This document shows positions 1 to 23,114 of a stretch of 39,423 nt of DNA, one piece after another. A model generated the notes under the pieces. The model saw nothing but the letters and a program-made list of their open reading frames with translations, was not told the origin of the DNA and did no database searches. Each line of letters starts with the position of its first letter. The first letter of the stretch is position 1. Origin of the DNA: Spirochaetales bacterium (GTDB lineage: Bacteria > Spirochaetota > Spirochaetia > Sphaerochaetales > Sphaerochaetaceae); NCBI GenBank assembly GCA_012514185.1, contig JAAZAT010000282.1, positions 1 to 39,423 on the forward strand, given 5' to 3'. Position numbers and translations under genes: made by a program.

Positions 1-90
1 GAGCAGCACATCATCGGCAAGCAATTGGTGACCGACCATATGTTCGATCGGCCGGCAGCTGACATCATCAAGAAGAACGGGGGTAAATAA
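1..90 (+). CDS. C-terminus of a small [2Fe-2S] ferredoxin-like protein (partial)
   Basis: Frame 1 is open from the window edge to a TAA at 88-90 and encodes 29 residues (EQHIIGKQLV near the start). This ending resembles the C-terminus of the small thioredoxin-fold [2Fe-2S] proteins that often precede hydB/nuoF genes in bifurcating hydrogenase clusters. The cysteine-bearing part lies outside the window, so the assignment rests on position and the short tail. The stop overlaps the next start as TAATG, so it is translationally coupled to hydB and belongs to the same operon. It could instead be another small hydrogenase subunit. Confidence 0.55.
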   Translation, partial: EQHIIGKQLVTDHMFDRPAADIIKKNGGK

Positions 91-1877
91 TGGCGTTCAG
101 AAACTACATCTTGGTCTGCGGAGGTACCGCTTGTGAGTCAAGCCGCTCGGACCAGATTTACCAGAACCTGATAGAGGAGTGCAAGGCACAGGGAGTCGCT
201 GACGAAGTACAGGTCGTCAAGACCGGCTGTTTTGGTTTCTGCGAGCAAGGCCCGATCGTCAAGATCCTTCCCGAGGACTCTTTCTATGTGAAAGTCGCTC
301 CAGAGGATGCCAAGGAGCTGATCAGCGAGCATGTCATCAAGGGCCGCGAAGTCACCCGCCTGCTCTACGACAAGGAGTCGAGCCGCAAGCATGCCAAGGT
401 TGAGGACATCAAGTTCTACCAGAAGCAGTTCCGCATCGTACTGCGCAACTGCGGTTTCATCGATCCCGAGAACATCGACGAATATATCGCCCGTGAAGGG
501 TATCAGGGGCTTGAAAGAGCTCTCTTCGAGCTGACCGGTGATGAGATCATCGAGGAGCTGAAGACTGCAGGCCTGCGTGGTCGCGGCGGTGCAGGCTTCC
601 CGACCTGGATGAAATGGAATTTCTCCCGCCAGGTACAGAATGACACCAAGTATGTCGTCTGCAACGCCGACGAAGGCGACCCGGGTGCCTATATGGACCG
701 TTCCACTTGTGAAGGCGACCCGCACTCGGTGCTCGAAGCCATGACCATCTGCGGCAAGACCATCGGAGCACACCAGGGCTTCATCTACATCCGCGCCGAG
801 TATCCCTTGGCCATTCACCGTCTCGAAATTGCCATGAAGCAGGCCCGTGAATACGGTCTCTTGGGCAAGAACATCCTCGGAAGCGGCTTTGACTTCGACA
901 TTGAGATCCGTCTTGGGGCCGGTGCGTTCGTCTGCGGTGAGGAGACTGCCCTGCTGCAGTCCATCGAAGGCAAGCGCGGCATGCCCCAGCCTCGTCCTCC
1001 ATTCCCCGCTGTCAAGGGCTTGTGGGGCAAACCGACGGTCATCAACAACGTTGAGACCTGGGCGAACGTCCCGGTCATCCTGACCAAGGGCGGCAACTGG
1101 TTCAACAAGATCGGTACTTCCGACAGCAAGGGAACCAAGGTTTTCGCCCTCACCGGCAAGATCCGCAACTCCGGCTTGGTCGAAGTCCCGATGGGAACCA
1201 CCCTGCGTGAGATCATCTACGACATCGGCGGCGGCATCGCTCATGACAAGAAGTTCAAGGCTGTGCAGACCGGCGGTCCGTCCGGCGGCGTCATCACCGA
1301 AGAGAACCTCGACACCCCGATCGATTTCGGCTCGCTGGTGCGAATCGGCTCGATGATGGGAAGCGGTGGTATGATCGTCATGGACGAAGACGACTGCATC
1401 GTCGACGTTGCGAAGTTCTACCTGAACTTCTCGGTCGATGAATCCTGCGGCAAATGTGCACCCTGCAGAATCGGTGGAAAGTCCCTGTGCAACATCCTGG
1501 AGAAGATTACTTCAGGCAATGGCACGCTCAAGGATTTGGACACGCTCTCGTCCATCGGTGAAGCAATGAAGAAGGGCAGTCTGTGTGCTCTGGGACAGAC
1601 CACTCCCAACCCGGTCCTCTCTTCGATGAAGCACTTCAAGGAAGAGTATCTCGCCCACATCGTGGACAAGACTTGTCCCAGCGGCACCTGTAAGAAACTC
1701 ATTTCCTACACGATCAATGCCGAGAAGTGTATCGGTTGTACGGCCTGCGCACGCAAGTGCCCCGTCGCTGCAATCTCTGGCGAACGAAAACAGGTTCATG
1801 TCATCGATCAGGCCCTCTGCATCAAGTGCGGTGTCTGTATGGAGACCTGTAAGTTCGGCGCCGTCGAAATCCACTAG
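90..1877 (+). CDS. hydB: NADH-binding subunit of electron-bifurcating [FeFe] hydrogenase (NuoF/HydB type)
   Basis: 595 residues with three parts. The N-terminal thioredoxin-like [2Fe-2S] domain has ligands C10, C15, C47 and C51. The NuoF core holds the FMN/NADH-binding segment GLRGRGGAGFP at 161-171 and NADEGDPGA at 192-200. The NuoF 4Fe-4S site is C453, C456, C459 and C499. Two C-terminal 4Fe-4S ferredoxin motifs follow (C547-C557 and C577-C587). In the HydABC family this subunit binds NAD(H) and flavin and passes electrons to HydA in the cytoplasm, coupling NADH and ferredoxin oxidation to H2 formation. The start is the ATG inside TAATG, coupled to the upstream gene. hydA follows 21 bases downstream. 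The extra ferredoxin tail separates it from respiratory NuoF. Confidence 0.96.
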   Translation: MAFRNYILVCGGTACESSRSDQIYQNLIEECKAQGVADEVQVVKTGCFGFCEQGPIVKILPEDSFYVKVAPEDAKELISEHVIKGREVTRLLYDKESSRKHAKVEDIKFYQKQFRIVLRNCGFIDPENIDEYIAREGYQGLERALFELTGDEIIEELKTAGLRGRGGAGFPTWMKWNFSRQVQNDTKYVVCNADEGDPGAYMDRSTCEGDPHSVLEAMTICGKTIGAHQGFIYIRAEYPLAIHRLEIAMKQAREYGLLGKNILGSGFDFDIEIRLGAGAFVCGEETALLQSIEGKRGMPQPRPPFPAVKGLWGKPTVINNVETWANVPVILTKGGNWFNKIGTSDSKGTKVFALTGKIRNSGLVEVPMGTTLREIIYDIGGGIAHDKKFKAVQTGGPSGGVITEENLDTPIDFGSLVRIGSMMGSGGMIVMDEDDCIVDVAKFYLNFSVDESCGKCAPCRIGGKSLCNILEKITSGNGTLKDLDTLSSIGEAMKKGSLCALGQTTPNPVLSSMKHFKEEYLAHIVDKTCPSGTCKKLISYTINAEKCIGCTACARKCPVAAISGERKQVHVIDQALCIKCGVCMETCKFGAVEIH

Positions 1878-1898: not shown

Positions 1899-3647
1899 TT
1901 GAGTATCGTACATGTGAAGATAAATGGCATCCCCGTTGAAGTTGAAGAGGGGACCAGCGTACTGAATGCGGCCAGGAAGGCCGGGGTCAAGATCCCGACC
2001 CTCTGCTACCACGATGACCTCAAGCCCTTCGGCTCCTGCGGTCTGTGCATCGTGAAGCAGGAAGGCAGCGCGAAGATCATTCGTGCTTGTGCAGCACCGG
2101 TCAATGAAGGTCTGAGTGTCATCACCCACGACCACGAGTTGTTCGAAGCCCGCAAGACCATTTTGGAACTGATTCTGTCCACCCACCCCTCCAGCTGCCT
2201 CACCTGCATCCGCAACGGTGAATGCGAGCTGCAGGACATTGCTGCAGAATTCGGCATCCGCGAACAGCCCTTCGAGGTCCGCCTCAGCAATCGGGAGAAA
2301 GACACCTCGTCTGCATCGATCGTGCTGGATCCCGAGAAGTGCATCAAGTGCGGACGCTGTGTACAGGTCTGTCAGGACCTGCAGGGTGTCTTCGCCCTTG
2401 AGTTCATCGGACGCGGTGATGAGACCTGCATGGCTCCCGCTGCCATGCTCAAGCTTGACGACAGCCCCTGCGTACGTTGCGGCCAGTGTGCTGCACACTG
2501 CCCGGTTGGTGCCATCTATGAGAAGGATGAGATCGCAACTTTCCTCTCAGCAGCCGCCGATCCCGAGAAGCAGGTCGTCGTCCAGATCGCTCCCTCTATT
2601 CGTGTAGGCTTGTCCGAATCCTTCGGTCTGCCTGCAGGAACCGTGACCACCAAGAAAATCTATGCGGCCCTCCGCAGGCTTGGTGCAAAGGCTGTACATG
2701 ATACCAACTTCGGTGCCGACCTCACCATCATGGAAGAGGGGACTGAGCTGGTCACCAGGCTGACCAAGGGCGGCGCCCTTCCCCAGCTGACCAGCTGCTG
2801 CCCGGCTTGGGTCGACTACGTGCAGAAGTACTATCCCGACCTGCTCGACCATGTATCGAGTGCCAAGAGCCCGATGCAGATGGTGGGAGCCATCGAGAAG
2901 ACGTTCTACGCCGAGAAGATGGGTATTGACCCGGCGAAGATGTACACCGTTGCCATCATGCCCTGCACAGCCAAGAAGTATGAGTCCGAACGTGACGAGC
3001 ATATGTATGCCAGCGGCCACAAGGACGTGGACCTGGTGTTGACCACCCGGGAGTTCGCCCGTCTGATCAAGAGCCAGGGAATCGATTTCCTCTCGCTTGC
3101 AGAAGAAGAGGCTGATAGCCCGATCGGAGAGTACAGCGGCGCCGGCACGATTTTCGGTGCCACCGGTGGAGTCATGGAAGCTGCGGTCCGTACCGCCTAC
3201 CATGTCGTGACCGGCAAGGAGCTGCAGAACGTCGAAGTCGGTGTGGTCCGCGGCCTTGCCGAGGTCAAGAAGGGAACCGTCGACTTTGATGGGACTCCGG
3301 TCCGTGTTGCAGTCGTGCATGGTCTTTCCCATGTCAAGGAAGTGATGGATGAGATCCGCGCTGCCAAGGCAGAGGGCAAGCAGGCTCCCTATGAGTTCAT
3401 CGAGGTCATGGCCTGTCGCGGCGGTTGTATCGCCGGCGGCGGACAGCCCTATGGTGCAACCGACATTCTGCGCGAGGAACGCTCGAAAGGCCTCTATGCC
3501 GACGACAAGAACAGTGCAGTGAGATGCTCGCACCAGAATGAGTCGATCCAGAAGCTCTACGAGACCTTCCTTGAAAAGCCGATGAGCCACAAGGCCCATC
3601 ACCTCTTGCATACCACCTATCAGGAACTTCCTGTTTACAAGGCCTGA
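1899..3647 (+). CDS. hydA: [FeFe] hydrogenase catalytic subunit HydA
   Basis: 582 residues starting at a TTG behind a very strong ribosome site (AGGAGAGGAGG, 1882-1892). Order: plant-type [2Fe-2S] domain (C36, C47, C50, C64), His-ligated 4Fe-4S (H96, C100, C103, C109), two 4Fe-4S motifs (C148-C158 and C191-C201), then the H-cluster domain. The H-cluster motifs are TSCCPAW (C300 proton relay, C301 ligand), MPCTAKK (M354, C356) and MACRGGC (C506, C510). All catalytic residues are present, so it should make or oxidise H2. The third motif has Arg507 where Pro is common. With hydB it forms the trimeric bifurcating (group A3-like) enzyme. The maturases HydE, HydF and HydG are not in the window. Confidence 0.97.
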   Translation: MSIVHVKINGIPVEVEEGTSVLNAARKAGVKIPTLCYHDDLKPFGSCGLCIVKQEGSAKIIRACAAPVNEGLSVITHDHELFEARKTILELILSTHPSSCLTCIRNGECELQDIAAEFGIREQPFEVRLSNREKDTSSASIVLDPEKCIKCGRCVQVCQDLQGVFALEFIGRGDETCMAPAAMLKLDDSPCVRCGQCAAHCPVGAIYEKDEIATFLSAAADPEKQVVVQIAPSIRVGLSESFGLPAGTVTTKKIYAALRRLGAKAVHDTNFGADLTIMEEGTELVTRLTKGGALPQLTSCCPAWVDYVQKYYPDLLDHVSSAKSPMQMVGAIEKTFYAEKMGIDPAKMYTVAIMPCTAKKYESERDEHMYASGHKDVDLVLTTREFARLIKSQGIDFLSLAEEEADSPIGEYSGAGTIFGATGGVMEAAVRTAYHVVTGKELQNVEVGVVRGLAEVKKGTVDFDGTPVRVAVVHGLSHVKEVMDEIRAAKAEGKQAPYEFIEVMACRGGCIAGGGQPYGATDILREERSKGLYADDKNSAVRCSHQNESIQKLYETFLEKPMSHKAHHLLHTTYQELPVYKA

Positions 3648-15183: not shown

Positions 15184-15205
15184 TCAGCTGAACTCATGGT
15201 AGTGT
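15177..15205 (+). promoter_or_regulatory. Predicted promoter of the M16C peptidase gene, sharing -35 bases with nfo
   Basis: Plus strand: TTGTCA (15177-15182), a 17-base spacer and TAGTGT (15200-15205, weak). The -35 matches consensus at five of six positions and overlaps the opposite-strand nfo -35 within TTGTCAA. Polymerase could occupy only one of the two promoters at a time. Confidence 0.4.
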
Positions 15206-15234
15206 CCTCCTTACAGAGAGAGGAGCGATACAGG

Positions 15235-18186
15235 ATGAGTGAACGGCAATGGGCCCTTGGCGATGAGGTATCCGGGTTTCAGTTGGTAGAGATTTCCACC
15301 CTGCCGGAGTACAAGGGTGTCGGGTACTTGTTTCGGCATATTGAAACCGGTATGGAAGTGTTCCAGGTGGTCAATGAGGATAGCGAGCTCTTTTTCAGCT
15401 ACGTGTTCAAGACGCTGCCCGGCAACGACTGCGGGATCGCCCACATTCTTGAGCATTGCGTGCTTGCCGGCTCTGAGCGTTACCCGGTGCGCGATCCGTT
15501 CATGACGTTGCTCAAGGGCAGCACCAACACCTTCATGAATGCCATGACCTACCCGGACAAGACCCTGTATCCAGCGGCCAGCCCGCTGAAGAAGGACTTT
15601 GACAATCTCTTTTGTGTGTACACCGATGCAGTATTCGCCCCGCTTCTGAGAGAAGAGACTTTTTGGCAGGAGGGGGTGCGCTTGGTCAGTGACGGTGAGA
15701 ACCTTCACTTTGAAGGGGTTGTCTACAACGAAATGCTCGGGGACGGCTCCGACCATGATTCGATTGTCGGCAAGAGCAGCGTCCGCTCCCTGTATCCCGA
15801 TACCCCCTATGCCTTTGAATCGGGGGGGAATCCCGAGCAGATCGTCCGCCTCGACTATCAACAGTTCCTCTCCTTCTACAGCCAGTTCTACCATCCCTCC
15901 AACTGCAAGCTGTTCCTGTTTGGAAACCTGCCGGTGGGAGAGAAGCTGGCGTACCTCGATCAGGAGTATTTGAAGACCCGCGGTTCGCTTCGTGTGAACA
16001 GCACCTGCAAGCCGGCCGCAAGATGGAAGCAGGAACGCAGCGTCACCTTCACCAGCCCGATGGAGGAGGGGCAGACCAAGGAGAGTTCCTCGGTCGTCCT
16101 CTCTTGGGCGACCAGTGAGGTGACCGACTCCTTGGCTTTGATCACCCTTTCAACCCTGGTTGACATTCTTCTGGGCAATCCGGCTGCCCCGCTGTACAAG
16201 GCGCTGCTCGACAGCGGGCTTGGATTGGACATCTCACCTGAGAGCGGGATGAGCGCCGACTTCAGGCAGATGCCGTTTCTGGTCGGTTTCAAAGGAATCG
16301 ATGCTCAGAAGGCGGAACAAGCAAGAGCCTGCATACTCAATTCCCTGGCAGACATCATCAAGCAAGGCTTGGACAGCGAATTGGTCGCCTCCAGCCTCAA
16401 GCGTGCACGCTTCAAGCAGTTGGAGATTCCCGGAGGCATGCCCAATGGGCTGAGGGCGTTGAACCGGAGCTTGCGTGGTTGGATTTTCGATCTTGGCCCA
16501 AGCGCCACCATCCAGTCGGCTCCCTTGCTCGAAGAGCTTGAACGGAAGCTGGAGGAAAATCCCCGATATTTCGAGGATTGGATGCAGGTCAACCTCATCG
16601 ACAACCCGCACCGATGCCTGGTGACGGTAAAAGGTGATGCCGAGCACCAAAAACGCCAAAGTGATTCGATTGCGCGATACGCCCAACAAATCAAGGACGA
16701 GCTGGGAAAGAAGGGGATGAAGCAGGTCGTCCTGCAGAATGAGCGGTTTGCCACATTTGAGAGTGAGGGTGATAAAGCCGAGGCTCTGGCCACGGTACCG
16801 TACCTGCGCTTGAGCGACCTGCCCAGTACGATCAAGCCGAATACCCACGATCATGTGCTTGCGGGTGGGCGCGACCTCTTTATCAGGCCGCAATTTTGCA
16901 ACCAGATTGTCTATGCAGATATCAGCTTGGATATCGCCGACCTCTCCGAGCGTGAGCTGTTGTTGCTTCCCTTCTATACAAGGCTGGTGCAGATGACCGG
17001 CATGGGCGAGCTCTCCTATGTACAGGTGGCCACCAAGCTCAAGCACCTGACCGGCGATTTCAATCTCTTTGTCGAGATGGGTTCGTCGTGTAGTGATGAG
17101 GATGTTCTGGTGCTGCTCTGCAGGGCCAAAATGCTGGTTGAGGATTTTGAGGAGGCGATGCAATTCATCCAGCGGTTGCTGTTTGAAGCCAAGGTCGATG
17201 ACCTGAAGCAGATCAAGCAGGTGCTGAACAACTATAAGACCGATTTCGCAGACAGCATAACCTACAGCGCCCACAGTTTCGCCTCGCTGTGTGCAGCCAG
17301 TGTCTTCAGCCCGATCCAGTACGAAGGCGAGCAGCTTTCCGGTCTGCACCAGTGGTTCTTCCTCGATGCCCTGACCGAAGACGACCTGCCGCAATTGGCG
17401 GTGGAGATGCTCGCGCTGCAGCAGAAGCTGAACAATCGCAATCGCCTGACCTGTCACCTCAGCTGTGATGAACAGGCTGTTCAGCCCCTGATTCCAATCG
17501 TCGATCGTTTTGTTCTGGGGTTCGAGGACAGGGGACCCGTTGTCGCCCAGAAGCGCAGCTACGATGCAGTCAGCAAGGGTGAAGTGCACGAAGTGCAGCT
17601 CTACCGGCTTCCCTCTACGGTCAGCTATGCAGCCTATGCCCTGAGAACCAGCGCACGGGGCAGCATCGAACAGGCGGCCCAAGTCTTGCTCGGCCAGATT
17701 CTGAGCGGAAACGACCTGTGGGAGGTGATCCGCGGTCAGGGAGGAGCCTACGGGGTGTCGGCCAATGCCGATGTGATGGAGCAGGTCTTCGTGTTCTCCA
17801 CCTATCGCGATCCACGGATCATCGGCTCGCTCAGTGACTTCAAGCGGGTGCTCTCCAAATATGCAACCGAGGCCGTCGATGCCAAGCATATTGAGAATGC
17901 CTTGATTTCCACCGTCGGTTCCGAGCTCAAGCCGCTCTCACCCAGCCAGGACTCCATCCTTTCTTTCCGACGGCTGCTCTACAAGATCAGCGATGAGTTC
18001 AGGCTCATGCGCAGGGAGCAGCTCTTGGGCATGGACAGCGACCAGCTCAACAAAGGCGCCCAGGCGTTGCTGAGATCGGCCGAGCTGGAGGATTCCTATG
18101 TGGTGTTGGCTGGTTCCCAGTTGCTGGAAGCTGAGAAGGTGAAGCATCCTATGCTTGATCGTCCTTCAATCCGTCTGCCGCTGTAG
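15235..18186 (+). CDS. M16C metallopeptidase (presequence protease/PreP-like)
   Basis: 983 residues from the ATG at 15235 with AGGAG at 15221-15225; the ATG at 15196 has no ribosome site. The inverted zinc motif HILEH (H70, E73, H74) and the third ligand in VYNEM (E166) mark the active N-terminal M16 half. The M16C-associated middle and the inactive C-terminal half make up the full length of about 980 residues typical of PreP/falcilysin-type peptidases. These are closed-chamber zinc peptidases that degrade short unfolded peptides. No signal peptide is present, so it is cytoplasmic. Its 3' end overlaps the convergent hydrogenase-like gene by 38 bases. Confidence 0.95.
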   Translation: MSERQWALGDEVSGFQLVEISTLPEYKGVGYLFRHIETGMEVFQVVNEDSELFFSYVFKTLPGNDCGIAHILEHCVLAGSERYPVRDPFMTLLKGSTNTFMNAMTYPDKTLYPAASPLKKDFDNLFCVYTDAVFAPLLREETFWQEGVRLVSDGENLHFEGVVYNEMLGDGSDHDSIVGKSSVRSLYPDTPYAFESGGNPEQIVRLDYQQFLSFYSQFYHPSNCKLFLFGNLPVGEKLAYLDQEYLKTRGSLRVNSTCKPAARWKQERSVTFTSPMEEGQTKESSSVVLSWATSEVTDSLALITLSTLVDILLGNPAAPLYKALLDSGLGLDISPESGMSADFRQMPFLVGFKGIDAQKAEQARACILNSLADIIKQGLDSELVASSLKRARFKQLEIPGGMPNGLRALNRSLRGWIFDLGPSATIQSAPLLEELERKLEENPRYFEDWMQVNLIDNPHRCLVTVKGDAEHQKRQSDSIARYAQQIKDELGKKGMKQVVLQNERFATFESEGDKAEALATVPYLRLSDLPSTIKPNTHDHVLAGGRDLFIRPQFCNQIVYADISLDIADLSERELLLLPFYTRLVQMTGMGELSYVQVATKLKHLTGDFNLFVEMGSSCSDEDVLVLLCRAKMLVEDFEEAMQFIQRLLFEAKVDDLKQIKQVLNNYKTDFADSITYSAHSFASLCAASVFSPIQYEGEQLSGLHQWFFLDALTEDDLPQLAVEMLALQQKLNNRNRLTCHLSCDEQAVQPLIPIVDRFVLGFEDRGPVVAQKRSYDAVSKGEVHEVQLYRLPSTVSYAAYALRTSARGSIEQAAQVLLGQILSGNDLWEVIRGQGGAYGVSANADVMEQVFVFSTYRDPRIIGSLSDFKRVLSKYATEAVDAKHIENALISTVGSELKPLSPSQDSILSFRRLLYKISDEFRLMRREQLLGMDSDQLNKGAQALLRSAELEDSYVVLAGSQLLEAEKVKHPMLDRPSIRLPL

Positions 18187-19486
18187 ATCGTTCGCCCCAG
18201 ATGCGGGCCAGACTGTTGAGGTCTTTTTCCGACTTGAGCTTGAGCACGACGCATTGACGGATGCTTGCCTGGCTTTTTGCAATATCCTCAGCCAAGACTT
18301 TGCAGGATGGACTGCCGCAGAGTCCGCAATCGATGCCGGGCAGGGCTTTGAGGATACGTTCTGCCTTGCGGAGTTTCTGCAGGGCCTTTGCATGGTCGGT
18401 GTCCAGGCCAAGCACCGCCAGGGGGGCGACCGGTTCCAGATTGAGATTTTTATAGAACGCACTCGCATGCCTCAGGATGCGTTCGCACAAATTCTGGTCC
18501 AACTGCTTGGGGACGGTGCTGGACCAGTGCCTGAGCCGCTCGGTTGCCAGAAATCGGTTGCGGACCGTCAGGATTCCCCCGACACACCCCTCTGCACAGG
18601 CGTCAAGCTCCAGAAATTGCAGGTTCGTGTCCTGTTCGTCTTCCAGGATTTCCAAGAATTCAATGACATTGTGCATCTCGTCGACTGCCAGGCAACGTCC
18701 GCTGTGACTCGAGCTCTGTCCCTTGACCAGGCTCCACCGCAAGGCTTTACGGGTGCAGACGGGGAAGCTGAACGCACGATTTCCTTCCTGTACTTCTCCC
18801 TTGTGCTTTGCAAGGTATGCACAAACAAGGTTGTAGGCGGTATCGAAATTGATGATCCCGTCGAAGAGGCGATGCTCCTCCGATCCCTCGGTCTTGAACT
18901 GGGCGATTTTTGCAGCACAGGGACTGAAGTAGAAGACACCCAGGCCGTCGGCGATCGCCTTCAGTTCACTGCGGACGAACATGGCCGTCACTTGGGCAGG
19001 GGAGCGCAGGGTGCTCAGGTTGCCCACCAAGAGGGGGAACCTGACTTGGATCAGGCGCTGGACCGAGGGACAGAAATTGCTGATCAGGGGAAGAGAGGAA
19101 CTCTGGTCCTTTGCTTCAAGAACAGTAAGAATGTCCACACCGGTTTCGGCAAGGTAGAGGTGGGTGAAGCCCAGCGCATACAAAGCTGTGATGATCTGGC
19201 CGAGCTTCACCGAATCGTCGAACTGTGCAAAAAAGACAGCCGGTACAATGGCGACGCGGGTGGTGAAGGCTTCAAGCTGGGAAAGGCTGTCCTGCTCGAT
19301 GGCGATGGCATCGTTCGGACAGACAGCCATGCACTGGCCGCATTCGATGCACAAGTCATTGTCGATCCGGGCTTTCCCCTTGGCGATGCGGATGGCCTGG
19401 GTCGGGCAGCGCTTCATGCAATGGGTGCACCCCTTGCAGGCATGTTCTACGATGTAGAGGGCATGATGAAAAACCTGGGTGCTCAT
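18149..19486 (-). CDS. Sensory-type [FeFe]-hydrogenase homologue (HydS-like iron-sulfur protein)
   Basis: 445 residues. Two N-terminal 4Fe-4S motifs (C17-C27 and C46-C56) precede a hydrogenase large-subunit domain (about 75-320). A C-terminal Fe-S domain (CGLCGSPSC, C387, C390, C395, plus C412) follows. The four cysteines that bind the H-cluster cubane are kept (C139, C190, C297, C301), as is a Lys after the second motif (K193). The proton-relay Cys is Phe138, the active-site Met is Ser188, and the third motif reads ACAEGC. These changes match putative sensory hydrogenases rather than fast catalysts. GGAGGAGGT precedes the ATG, which overlaps the ATPase stop (ATGA). Likely role: sensing H2 or redox state and signalling through the ATPase. 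Confidence 0.85.
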   Translation of the reverse strand: MSTQVFHHALYIVEHACKGCTHCMKRCPTQAIRIAKGKARIDNDLCIECGQCMAVCPNDAIAIEQDSLSQLEAFTTRVAIVPAVFFAQFDDSVKLGQIITALYALGFTHLYLAETGVDILTVLEAKDQSSSLPLISNFCPSVQRLIQVRFPLLVGNLSTLRSPAQVTAMFVRSELKAIADGLGVFYFSPCAAKIAQFKTEGSEEHRLFDGIINFDTAYNLVCAYLAKHKGEVQEGNRAFSFPVCTRKALRWSLVKGQSSSHSGRCLAVDEMHNVIEFLEILEDEQDTNLQFLELDACAEGCVGGILTVRNRFLATERLRHWSSTVPKQLDQNLCERILRHASAFYKNLNLEPVAPLAVLGLDTDHAKALQKLRKAERILKALPGIDCGLCGSPSCKVLAEDIAKSQASIRQCVVLKLKSEKDLNSLARIWGERSTAADGLKDDQA

Positions 19487-19905
19487 ACCTCCTCCTTAAG
19501 ATTGAAGAGCATGGTCAGATGGGTATGGTCGCCTTCTTTTGTATAGATGGAGAGCTTGTCACAGCTTTTTTGGATGTTCGGCAGGCCCATGCCCGCCCCG
19601 TATCCCAGTTCGCGCACTTCCTCGGTTGCGGTGGACCACCCCTCGGTCATCGCTAGGTCCAGGTCGGGGATGCCGGGGCCGGTATCAATGACTTGGACCT
19701 GGATTGCATCCTCCTCGAAGTCGCAGAGAATCCTGCCCCCGTATGAGTGTGCAATGACGTTGACTTCAGCCTCGAAGACCGCGACTATGATGCGCTTGAT
19801 CGTCTGGGGTGGGATGTTCAGCTGCTTGAGCAGCCGTTTGAGGTTGCTTGAGGCAACCCCTGCCACCGAGAAGTCCTGAGCTGGGACGAGGTACTCTTGG
19901 TGCAT
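19483..19905 (-). CDS. Anti-sigma-type ATP-binding protein (HATPase_c, SpoIIAB/RsbW-like)
   Basis: 140 residues with the GHKL fold: N-box E45/N49 in VFEAEVNVIAHS, G1 box DTGPGI (D74, G76, G78) and G2 box GAGMGL (103-108). There is no phosphoacceptor or sensor domain, so it is not a complete histidine kinase. Stand-alone proteins of this size act as Ser/Thr kinases of anti-sigma-antagonist proteins or as anti-sigma factors. It starts one base after the DRTGG stop and overlaps the hydrogenase-like gene. Similar ATPases occur in clostridial and Thermotoga hydrogenase clusters, so a signalling role with its neighbour is the best inference. No antagonist or sigma partner is adjacent. Confidence 0.88.
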   Translation of the reverse strand: MHQEYLVPAQDFSVAGVASSNLKRLLKQLNIPPQTIKRIIVAVFEAEVNVIAHSYGGRILCDFEEDAIQVQVIDTGPGIPDLDLAMTEGWSTATEEVRELGYGAGMGLPNIQKSCDKLSIYTKEGDHTHLTMLFNLKEEV

Positions 19906-19906
19906 C

Positions 19907-20251
19907 CTAATATACCGGCTTCAACCCTTGTTGATAGAGCAGTGCACTGGCCTTGAAGAGGGAATAGGCAGTGTAGGAGAGGGAGATGTTCAGCTCATTT
20001 GCCATATCGATCATGCTCTGGCTCGGTTTCTTGTTGCGAACCAAAAGGATGTTGCTGATATCGCTCATCTCCGCAGTTCTAATGGCTTGGTTGTTGGACA
20101 AGCCGGTAATGAGGATGATGTCATCCTCCAAAATGGTCAGGACATCGCTCATGAGGTCGCTGGCGAAGCCTCTCGTCACTTCATCTTCCAGATGGGACTC
20201 TCCGCAGACGAGTTTTCCATCCACACATGCTAAAATATCTTTGAGTTTCAT
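19907..20251 (-). CDS. DRTGG-domain protein
   Basis: 114 residues. The pattern ILITGLSNNQAIRTAEMSD, ILLVRNKKPSQSMIDMANE, then ISLSYTAYSLFKAS matches the stand-alone DRTGG fold, also found in phosphotransacetylases and CBS-containing proteins, though the name-giving motif is degenerate. The fold is thought to bind a small ligand or mediate protein contacts. It heads the ATPase/hydrogenase-like operon. DRTGG, ATPase and hydrogenase genes also cluster in other anaerobes, which supports a joint function. No Shine-Dalgarno precedes the ATG, and TATACT ends 7 bases upstream, so the message may be leaderless. Confidence 0.85.
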   Translation of the reverse strand: MKLKDILACVDGKLVCGESHLEDEVTRGFASDLMSDVLTILEDDIILITGLSNNQAIRTAEMSDISNILLVRNKKPSQSMIDMANELNISLSYTAYSLFKASALLYQQGLKPVY

Positions 20252-20258
20252 AGGTGAG

Positions 20259-20264
20259 AGTATA
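20259..20264 (-). promoter_or_regulatory. Predicted -10 element of the sensory hydrogenase operon
   Basis: Minus-strand TATACT (20264-20259) lies 7 bases before the ATG at 20251. No convincing -35 is present 16-18 bases upstream, so this may be an activator-dependent or alternative-sigma promoter. Confidence 0.4.
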
Positions 20265-20312
20265 CCATGGACAAAGGCTCCGACGGTAGGTAAAACTCAG
20301 ACTCCTTTTACT

Positions 20313-20336
20313 CTTTTTGCCTTTCAAAAAGAAAGG
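20313..20336. promoter_or_regulatory. Two overlapping inverted repeats at the glpK promoter
   Basis: CTTTTTG (20313-20319) pairs perfectly with CAAAAAG (20325-20331). CCTTTC (20320-20325) pairs perfectly with GAAAGG (20331-20336). The two pairings share bases and exclude each other. They sit over the proposed glpK -35 and spacer, so they are best read as operator half-sites. Confidence 0.45.
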
Positions 20337-20350
20337 TGAGAAGCTATACT
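20322..20350 (+). promoter_or_regulatory. Predicted glpK promoter
   Basis: TTTCAA (20322-20327), a 17-base spacer and TATACT (20345-20350, five of six). Transcription would start near 20357. The short leader would begin at or just before the AGGAGG ribosome site (20360-20365). Confidence 0.45.
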
Positions 20351-20371
20351 GGCTGAAAGAGGAGGATTTGC

Positions 20372-21895: not shown

Positions 21896-22717
21896 ATGGT
21901 TCTTGACGCAATGCAAGGAGTGTTGTCATTCATACGCCCCGCCTTACAGGTGGGGGTTCTTGCATGGTTGTTCTACCGGTTCTACGTCACCATAGCCCAG
22001 ACCAAGGCACAACAGTTGGTCAAGGTGGTGGTGATCCTGTTTGCAGCCTTTGCCATCAGTTACATCCTGAAACTGGATGTCCTGCTCTGGTTCTTCCGCT
22101 ACATTTCGGTTCCTGCAACCATTTTCATCTGCATTGTCTATCAGCCGGAACTGAGGAGGTCGTTCACCCAGCTGTGGAGCGGCCGTTCCAGGCTCTTCAG
22201 GATCGGGACGCAGACGACGAGCTCGGATCAGATCGACTCCATCCTCAATGCCTGCAACGTGTTGGTGAACAAGCGCAGGGGTGCCTTGATCGTATTCCCG
22301 CGCCGCCTGGGGATCAAGAACATCATCGACAGCGGGACCCGGCTCAACGCCGACCTCTCCACCAGCCTGATTCTTACGGTGTTCGACCATGATACTCCGC
22401 TGCATGATGGGGCGATGGTTGTCCAAGGCGGGCGCATCGTGGCCGCCGGATGCTACCTCCCCCTCAGTGAGCAGACCGATATCAAGAAGAGTTTCGGAAC
22501 CCGCCACCGGGCGGCGTTGGGATTGGCTGAGGAGTCGGATGCTGTTGTGCTCATTGTCAGCGAGGAGACCGGGGCGATCAGCATGACCTACAACGCCAAC
22601 CTCTACTATGACTTGGAAACTGGAACGATCAAGCGAATGCTGCTTGCCTTGTTCAGTTACAACGACATCACGCCTGAAGAACTTTTGCAGGAGGCAAGCA
22701 GTGATGAAACTGAATAA
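21896..22717 (+). CDS. cdaA: Diadenylate cyclase CdaA
   Basis: 273 residues from an ATG with GGAG. Three hydrophobic segments (about residues 8-85) precede the DAC domain. The catalytic DGA motif is at 171-173 in HDTPLHDGAMV and the RHR motif at 203-205 in GTRHRAALG. It joins two ATP into cyclic di-AMP at the membrane. In many bacteria c-di-AMP controls potassium and osmolyte transport and wall homeostasis. The last 14 bases overlap cdaR, the usual partner. glmM, often third in such operons, is absent here; acpS follows instead. Confidence 0.96.
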   Translation: MVLDAMQGVLSFIRPALQVGVLAWLFYRFYVTIAQTKAQQLVKVVVILFAAFAISYILKLDVLLWFFRYISVPATIFICIVYQPELRRSFTQLWSGRSRLFRIGTQTTSSDQIDSILNACNVLVNKRRGALIVFPRRLGIKNIIDSGTRLNADLSTSLILTVFDHDTPLHDGAMVVQGGRIVAAGCYLPLSEQTDIKKSFGTRHRAALGLAEESDAVVLIVSEETGAISMTYNANLYYDLETGTIKRMLLALFSYNDITPEELLQEASSDETE

Positions 22718-23114
22718 ACACCTGCAAGCATTCATCTACAACTGGCCGGCCAAGGTCTTGTCCTTGGTCTTTGCCTTGCTGGTGTACGCCTTCATCCAAT
22801 ACACCACCTTGGGAGCCCGGGTGGTGACCCTGCCTCTGGAAGTCTTGCTGCCTGCCGGTTACGAAGCCGAGAGCCTTGTGCCTGCTTCGGTTGAGGTCAG
22901 CATCAGGGGGAATGAGGATATCATCTACCTCATCAATCCGAATTCCATCCAGGCAAGTGCAGACTTCTCCGCCGTCAAGCAGGAGGGCATTGCCACAGCT
23001 CCGGTGATTCTCATCTACGATGAGCAGCTTTTCGATAGTGCCGATATCGCCCTGTCGGCCAATCCCACCCAATTCAGGATTCTCTTCACAGCGGGGAGCG
23101 GACCTGATGATTGA
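22704..23114 (+). CDS. cdaR: CdaR/YbbR-like regulator with a single YbbR domain
   Basis: 136 residues from the ATG at 22704, with GGAGG about 9 bases upstream. One N-terminal membrane helix (about 15-34, AKVLSLVFALLVYAFIQY) is followed by one extracytoplasmic YbbR-type domain (RVVTLPLEVLLPAGY ... VSIRGNEDIIYLI). Firmicute CdaR usually carries several YbbR domains, so this is a minimal form. It overlaps cdaA by 14 bases and acpS by 8. By analogy it binds CdaA and modulates diadenylate cyclase activity; that role is inferred from order and fold. Confidence 0.85.
   Translation: MKLNKHLQAFIYNWPAKVLSLVFALLVYAFIQYTTLGARVVTLPLEVLLPAGYEAESLVPASVEVSIRGNEDIIYLINPNSIQASADFSAVKQEGIATAPVILIYDEQLFDSADIALSANPTQFRILFTAGSGPDD

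Follow-up and report, generated by a model that had tools for sequence, protein, structure and literature searches.

How does a sensory hydrogenase that has no PAS domain pass on its signal? The question was put for the group D (M2e) [FeFe] hydrogenase TamHydS by the authors who studied it (PMC8163306), and it arises again for a three-gene operon in a 39,423-nucleotide (nt) stretch of DNA from a Spirochaetales bacterium (contig JAAZAT010000282.1; the whole stretch is called the window below). The operon encodes a small DRTGG protein, a SpoIIAB-like ATPase of the GHKL type and a hydrogenase-like protein.

Group D hydrogenases are proposed to be sensory (PMC8163306, PMC10407848, PMC13104023). 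They have two N-terminal [4Fe-4S] motifs, an H-domain and a C-terminal Cx2Cx4Cx16C motif, and no PAS domain; in the active site Cys299 is lost, mostly to Ala, and Met353 is replaced by Ser/Thr (PMC8163306). A proton path through S249, E252, D265 and E289 has been proposed for them (PMC10407848).

In this study, we examined the operon, its relatives and the machinery for H-cluster maturation in their genomes. With moderate confidence, we read the operon as encoding a redox or H2 sensor derived from a group D (M2e) hydrogenase, which has the GHKL ATPase from the gene just upstream as its direct partner and to which the DRTGG protein is a separable addition.

Results

The operon

An initial annotation of the sequence had placed DRTGG, SpoIIAB-like ATPase and hydrogenase-like genes at 18149-20251, and all three open reading frames and their Pfam domains were confirmed. 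The host genome (G000) is a Sphaerochaeta-type metagenome-assembled genome (MAG) that is ~86% complete. In order of transcription, the genes are:

19907-20251, minus strand: DRTGG protein gene, a stand-alone domain of 114 amino acids with the motif GFASDLMSDVLT
19483-19905, minus strand: GHKL (SpoIIAB-like) ATPase gene, 140 amino acids
18149-19486, minus strand: group D (M2e)-type [FeFe]-hydrogenase-like sensor gene, 445 amino acids

The first two genes are 1 nt apart, and the ATPase and hydrogenase genes share 4 nt (ATGA). Pfam matches were DRTGG (2.8e-7), HATPase_c_2 (1.6e-10) and Fe_hyd_lg_C (7.1e-20), the last together with Fer4 and FeS (PF04060). Among the three closest species, the ratio of nonsynonymous to synonymous substitution (dN/dS) is 0.01-0.09 for the operon genes, which indicates purifying selection. 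Because of these values, and because the trio is kept gene by gene in dozens of genomes, it is not a chance arrangement.

A group D hydrogenase-like sensor

The hydrogenase-like protein has two N-terminal [4Fe-4S] motifs (C17-C27 and C46-C56) and a C-terminal Cx2Cx4Cx16C motif (C387, C390, C395 and C412), neither of which the initial annotation had listed, and a Pfam search gave no PAS domain match. The residues that it had listed (C139, C190, C297, C301, F138, S188 and the ACAEGC motif) were all found. The four H-cluster cysteines among them do not vary across 21 aligned relatives, and the SPCAAK-motif lysine is retained as well. Position 188, where the Met353 equivalent is replaced, is Ser/Thr in all relatives. 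The Cys299 equivalent is F/Y (F138 in the window protein), whereas it is mostly Ala in published group D proteins. D269 and E293, as mapped by spacing, are equivalents of D265 and E289 of the proposed proton path, the latter being shared with hydrogenase groups other than D; the remaining two path positions are V254 and Q257.

In a tree of H-domains, the sensor and its relatives are set apart, with an SH-aLRT support of 100, from the proteins of groups A, B and C that these genomes also encode. The TamHydS reference is absent from this tree, and three rows labelled C on its group D side are duplicate copies of group D reading frames. The AlphaFold model (mean predicted local distance difference test score, pLDDT, 85.7) has catalytic [FeFe] hydrogenases as its best PDB matches. 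Judged from sequence, by architecture and phylogeny, the identification as a group D (M2e) hydrogenase is well supported. The match to the published group D criteria also favors the earlier suggestion that the residue pattern is that of a sensor and not of a fast catalyst.

A strictly linked gene pair and a separable DRTGG gene

The locus was present in 37 distinct genomes: 18 of the genus Sphaerochaeta (including the host), one genus fragment, 11 other spirochaetes and seven Bacteroidota. In all 37, and thus in both Spirochaetota and Bacteroidota, the ATPase and hydrogenase genes are neighbors, with a gap of -14 to +10 nt. The DRTGG gene lies directly upstream of the ATPase gene in 32 of the 36 assessable genomes; three of the exceptions have the pair with no DRTGG gene nearby, and in the fourth the DRTGG gene is two genes away. 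The initial annotation had named a lack of conserved synteny in related genomes as a ground for rejecting its reading; the synteny is there. Since the pair is adjacent throughout, whereas the DRTGG gene is missing or displaced in four genomes, the ATPase-hydrogenase pair is the core unit and DRTGG is a further, separable component.

In one genome (G022), the DRTGG gene stands without the other two: an orphan (L124, G022:C153, 18607-18969), 69% identical, occupies the same locus beside the M16 gene, the ATPase and sensor genes are gone, and hydBA is still on the same contig. Because DRTGG is kept alone at the module locus, it seems to have a role independent of the sensor. Another genome, G019 (L120/L121), gave the impression of having lost the module cleanly but was excluded, since its contig begins within the gene for the M16 peptidase and glpK is followed by a transposase-like gene. 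Given these contig ends, the module is either absent from G019 or lost at a contig junction.

The DRTGG protein scores 30.8 bits against PF07085 (cut-off 25.2). Its AlphaFold model (pLDDT 94.6) is closest in fold to 2ioj (Pfam DRTGG; TM-score 0.82), followed by the DRTGG domain of CBS-pyrophosphatase and by HPr kinase/phosphatase. A literature search on DRTGG together with [FeFe] hydrogenase found no stand-alone DRTGG partner.

The ATPase

The ATPase retains the SpoIIAB versions of the GHKL catalytic motifs (N-box E/N, DxGxG and GxGxG): E45 and N49 of the N box, DTGPGI (G1) and GxGxGL (G2) are invariant or nearly so. SpoIIAB is its best NCBIfam match, at 52.1 bits against a cut-off of 135, and is also its closest relative in a PDB sequence search. 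In the host genome and in G005 and G018, the near-complete genomes closest to it, no stand-alone STAS protein was found; each has one STAS match, in a frame of ~550 amino acids (554 in G000), and these frames are read as SulP-type transporters. A stand-alone STAS protein of ~120-134 amino acids is present in some other members of the genus. Searches of eight genus genomes gave no sigma B, F or G above cut-off, and the conserved neighborhood of the module contains no STAS or sigma gene.

The low SpoIIAB score, the lack of stand-alone STAS in these three genomes and the lack of above-cut-off sigma B, F and G in the eight searched make classical partner switching on a sigma factor unlikely, and the SpoIIAA/SpoIIAB-style scheme of the initial annotation is not borne out. 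Perhaps the ATPase belongs to a kinase/phosphatase pair that acts on another protein, possibly DRTGG. A lone ATPase partner had also been thought unusual for a sensory hydrogenase; TamHydS likewise has one, and no PAS domain.

Two proton-relay residues are replaced throughout the genus

Wherever a Sphaerochaeta sequence covers the site, V254 and Q257 stand at the group D S249 and E252 positions. In the same columns, other families carry Ser/Thr (Ile in one case) and Glu, the divergent L034 being the sole other exception. In group D, E252 is highly conserved and S249 (Ser/Thr) moderately so (PMC10407848); since these residues are a published consensus for the proposed path and not a formal definition of the group, we count V/Q as a variant. 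The TamHydS residues were mapped by published numbering and by the S249/E252/D265/E289 spacing, so that the correspondence is an inferred one. In a profile alignment to a group A-type structure, the E252/Q257 column falls on the valine of the GGV motif, which agrees with PMC10407848 for position 252. Direct TamHydS numbering was tried on L071 and fits the N-terminal cluster domain (C20, R30, R32, K35, R42 and K58); further on it fails because of indels.

The E252V and E252D variants of TamHydS had no detectable H2 oxidation (PMC10407848), and for this reason we predict that the Sphaerochaeta sensor catalyzes H2 turnover very slowly or not at all. The V/Q change is seen in genus genomes both with and without the maturases HydE, HydF and HydG and therefore does not track maturase loss.

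H-cluster maturation

These maturases were sought in 60 genomes with one search tool, three hidden Markov models and curated cut-offs. All three were detected together in 14 genomes, and one or two of them in two more. None was found in 38 of the 54 genomes that have an [FeFe]-hydrogenase domain, including 19 of 29 that are >=95% complete. Within Sphaerochaeta they went undetected in 21 of 26 genomes, among them the host MAG and eight genomes assembled as one or two contigs, and these 21 genomes carry 1-6 [FeFe]-hydrogenase domains. Only G003, G006, G008, G010 and G024 have HydEFG in the genus, in a compact operon whose flanks are common to only some of them. It speaks for the search that it finds HydEFG in other single-contig genomes (G042 and G059) and that the three genes nearly always come as a set. 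The non-detection may stem from masked sequence, lost plasmids or maturases that have diverged.

HydA in 18 genus genomes keeps TSCCP, MPCTAKK, GATGGVME and ACRGGCIAGGGQP, and hydA has a dN/dS near 0.03 among G000, G005 and G018. Because HydA is canonical and under strong purifying selection, its sequence suggests that H-clusters are made in these genomes. In the literature available, no report of H2 being produced by pure cultures of Sphaerochaeta was found. The earlier idea that the H-cluster controls signaling is weakened: HydE, HydF and HydG were detected neither in the MAG nor in close relatives, and two of the four relay residues are lost across the genus.

Linkage to HydABC

Two genes near the start of the window encode subunits of the electron-bifurcating HydABC hydrogenase and are possible targets of the module:

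90-1877, plus strand: hydB, NuoF-like HydABC subunit
1899-3647, plus strand: hydA, group A catalytic subunit, with TSCCPAW, MPCTAKKYE, GATGGVME and EVMACRGGCIAGGGQP

In Bacteroidota the trio is directly upstream of hydABC genes, in the order DRTGG1-ATPase1-HydS-DRTGG2-PHP-HATPase2-(Sir2)-HydC-HydB-HydA. The Sphaerochaeta hydABC operon has the order HATPase2-HydC-HydB-HydA, with a divergent Rex gene. Of ten genus genomes checked, nine have it ~15-20 kb away from the trio; in the tenth (G017), the two are on different contigs. The genes in between are largely conserved in the genus and make up a wider syntenic block, so the 15-kb linkage is by itself weak evidence of regulation. The link to hydAB noted in the initial annotation is thus real, direct in Bacteroidota and at ~15 kb in the genus, and it is the regulatory meaning of linkage alone that is weak. 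The Bacteroidota arrangement is the better argument for a HydABC connection.

Flanking genes and the upstream region

The operon is bordered by:

15196-18186, convergent: a gene read as an M16-type peptidase, whose 3' end overlaps the hydrogenase gene by 38 nt
20252-20371, no strand assigned: intergenic region that separates the operon from the divergent glpK, aligned in 8 relatives
upstream of the operon, divergent: a glpK-like gene

In the aligned relatives, an extended -10-like TGnTATACT stops seven bases short of the DRTGG ATG, and this spacing suggests a leaderless transcript. A palindrome, CTTTTTGAAAGGCAAAAAG, between the operon and glpK is conserved in most relatives. Close to the module, at 21896-23114 of the window, are a CdaA-like diadenylate cyclase gene and then a YbbR-like gene. 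DRTGG domains of CBS-pyrophosphatases have been reported with diadenosine compounds. A connection between the cyclase and the DRTGG protein is a possible, hypothetical link.

Discussion

Relation to known systems

The window protein is much like TamHydS of Thermoanaerobacter mathranii (group D/M2e) (PMC8163306, PMC10407848). The two share domain order, the Cx2Cx4Cx16C tail and the lack of PAS, the change of Met353 to Ser/Thr, the loss of Cys299 and the retention of D265 and E289 equivalents, and both genes lie beside a gene for a histidine-kinase-like ATPase and are linked to a bifurcating hydrogenase. They differ in that A137 of TamHydS is Phe/Tyr here and Val and Gln replace its S249 and E252 throughout the genus, in that the window operon has a DRTGG gene whereas an AraC-type regulator has been described on the other side of the TamHydS gene, and in that HydEFG is undetected in most host species here.

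Group C (M2f) TmHydS resembles the window protein as a sensor-type hydrogenase with N- and C-terminal FeS motifs and a replaced Cys299, but it has a published C-terminal PAS domain and group C falls on a separate side of the tree. The host genome has a second cluster (L056, G000:C314, 525-6481) with Rex, a thioredoxin-like 2Fe-2S protein, a group C-type hydrogenase (603 amino acids), a SpoIIE-type phosphatase and a group B-type hydrogenase; there, unlike in the window operon, a phosphatase gene follows the hydrogenase gene. The ATPase shares its fold family and its N-box E/N, G1 and G2 motifs with the GHKL kinases SpoIIAB and RsbW, but is below the family cut-off, and a cognate STAS or sigma protein of that type was not found. 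The DRTGG protein has the Pfam domain and fold of AF1212 (2ioj), CBS-DRTGG pyrophosphatase and the HPr kinase N-domain fold; unlike these, it is stand-alone, with no CBS or catalytic domain, and is seen with a group D operon or hydABC.

How the operon might work, and what else it might be

In the reading that we favor, the sensor would shift its conformation in response to the redox state of its FeS relay or, where an H-cluster is present, to H2 at that cluster, and this would alter the nucleotide-dependent binding or the kinase activity of the ATPase. The signal would then go from the ATPase to the small DRTGG protein, which would adjust HydABC or its expression. From the sensor onward, this is the path that we infer. 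Several observations weigh against it. The operon encodes no DNA-contacting output protein, and a search of its upstream region for a Rex-like operator gave no site better than shuffles. The divergent Rex gene of the genus hydABC may suffice for control of that operon, and the linkage to hydA belongs to the wider syntenic block. Val and Gln at the S249 and E252 positions throughout the genus, and the failure to find HydE, HydF or HydG in the 86% complete MAG or its close near-complete relatives, count in the same direction.

Were the ATPase a SpoIIAB/RsbW-type anti-sigma factor and kinase that keeps a sigma factor bound until H2 is sensed by the hydrogenase, its closeness to SpoIIAB by profile and PDB sequence search and its intact kinase motifs would be accounted for, and the genome does have a SpoIIE-family phosphatase, although beside the group C hydrogenase. 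Such partner switching is improbable in view of the 52-bit score, the single ~550-amino-acid STAS frame in each of G000, G005 and G018, the lack of any sigma B, F or G above cut-off in the eight genomes and a neighborhood without STAS or sigma genes. We think it just as improbable that the protein is not a sensor but a catalytic hydrogenase of low activity, accompanied by an accessory ATPase. TamHydS has measurable H2 turnover (PMC8163306), and the structural matches are to catalytic enzymes; yet the operon has no NAD- or flavin-binding partner subunit, proton-relay residues are replaced, and the constant partner is a small signaling-type ATPase.

A stronger competitor, though we still consider it rather unlikely, is that no complete H-cluster forms in this lineage and the protein, although derived from a hydrogenase, senses redox state through [4Fe-4S] clusters and acts together with the ATPase, without contact with H2. 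This would fit the 21 of 26 genus genomes, eight of them in one or two contigs, without detected maturases, the genus-wide replacement of S249 and E252, and F/Y in place of Cys299. It is opposed by the retention of the four H-cluster cysteines and the SPCAAK lysine, by the canonical, strongly selected HydA of the same genomes, which suggests H-clusters, and by the presence of V/Q also in genus genomes that have HydEFG.

Implications

New here are the ATPase-sensor linkage in 37 of 37 genomes, the Bacteroidota hydABC order, the V/Q change of the genus, the non-detection of HydE, HydF and HydG, and the evidence against sigma partner switching. Most Sphaerochaeta keep several, typically five, [FeFe]-hydrogenase paralogues, this sensor among them, under purifying selection and without detectable HydE, HydF or HydG, in genomes that can be hydrogenase-rich and near-complete, which raises the question of whether these organisms make the H-cluster at all and, if so, by what means. 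Tentatively, and with more doubt than assurance, we suggest that these organisms either have an unknown H-cluster route or use the sensor, and perhaps other paralogues, as a redox switch without a complete H-cluster, coupled to the GHKL ATPase. The natural change of Glu252 to Gln, together with Ser249 to Val, across a whole genus offers a natural test of whether H2 turnover is needed in a sensory hydrogenase at all. As to how a sensor of this kind passes on its signal, the ATPase is the partner to test, since its gene and the sensor gene stay together in all 37 genomes, across two phyla.

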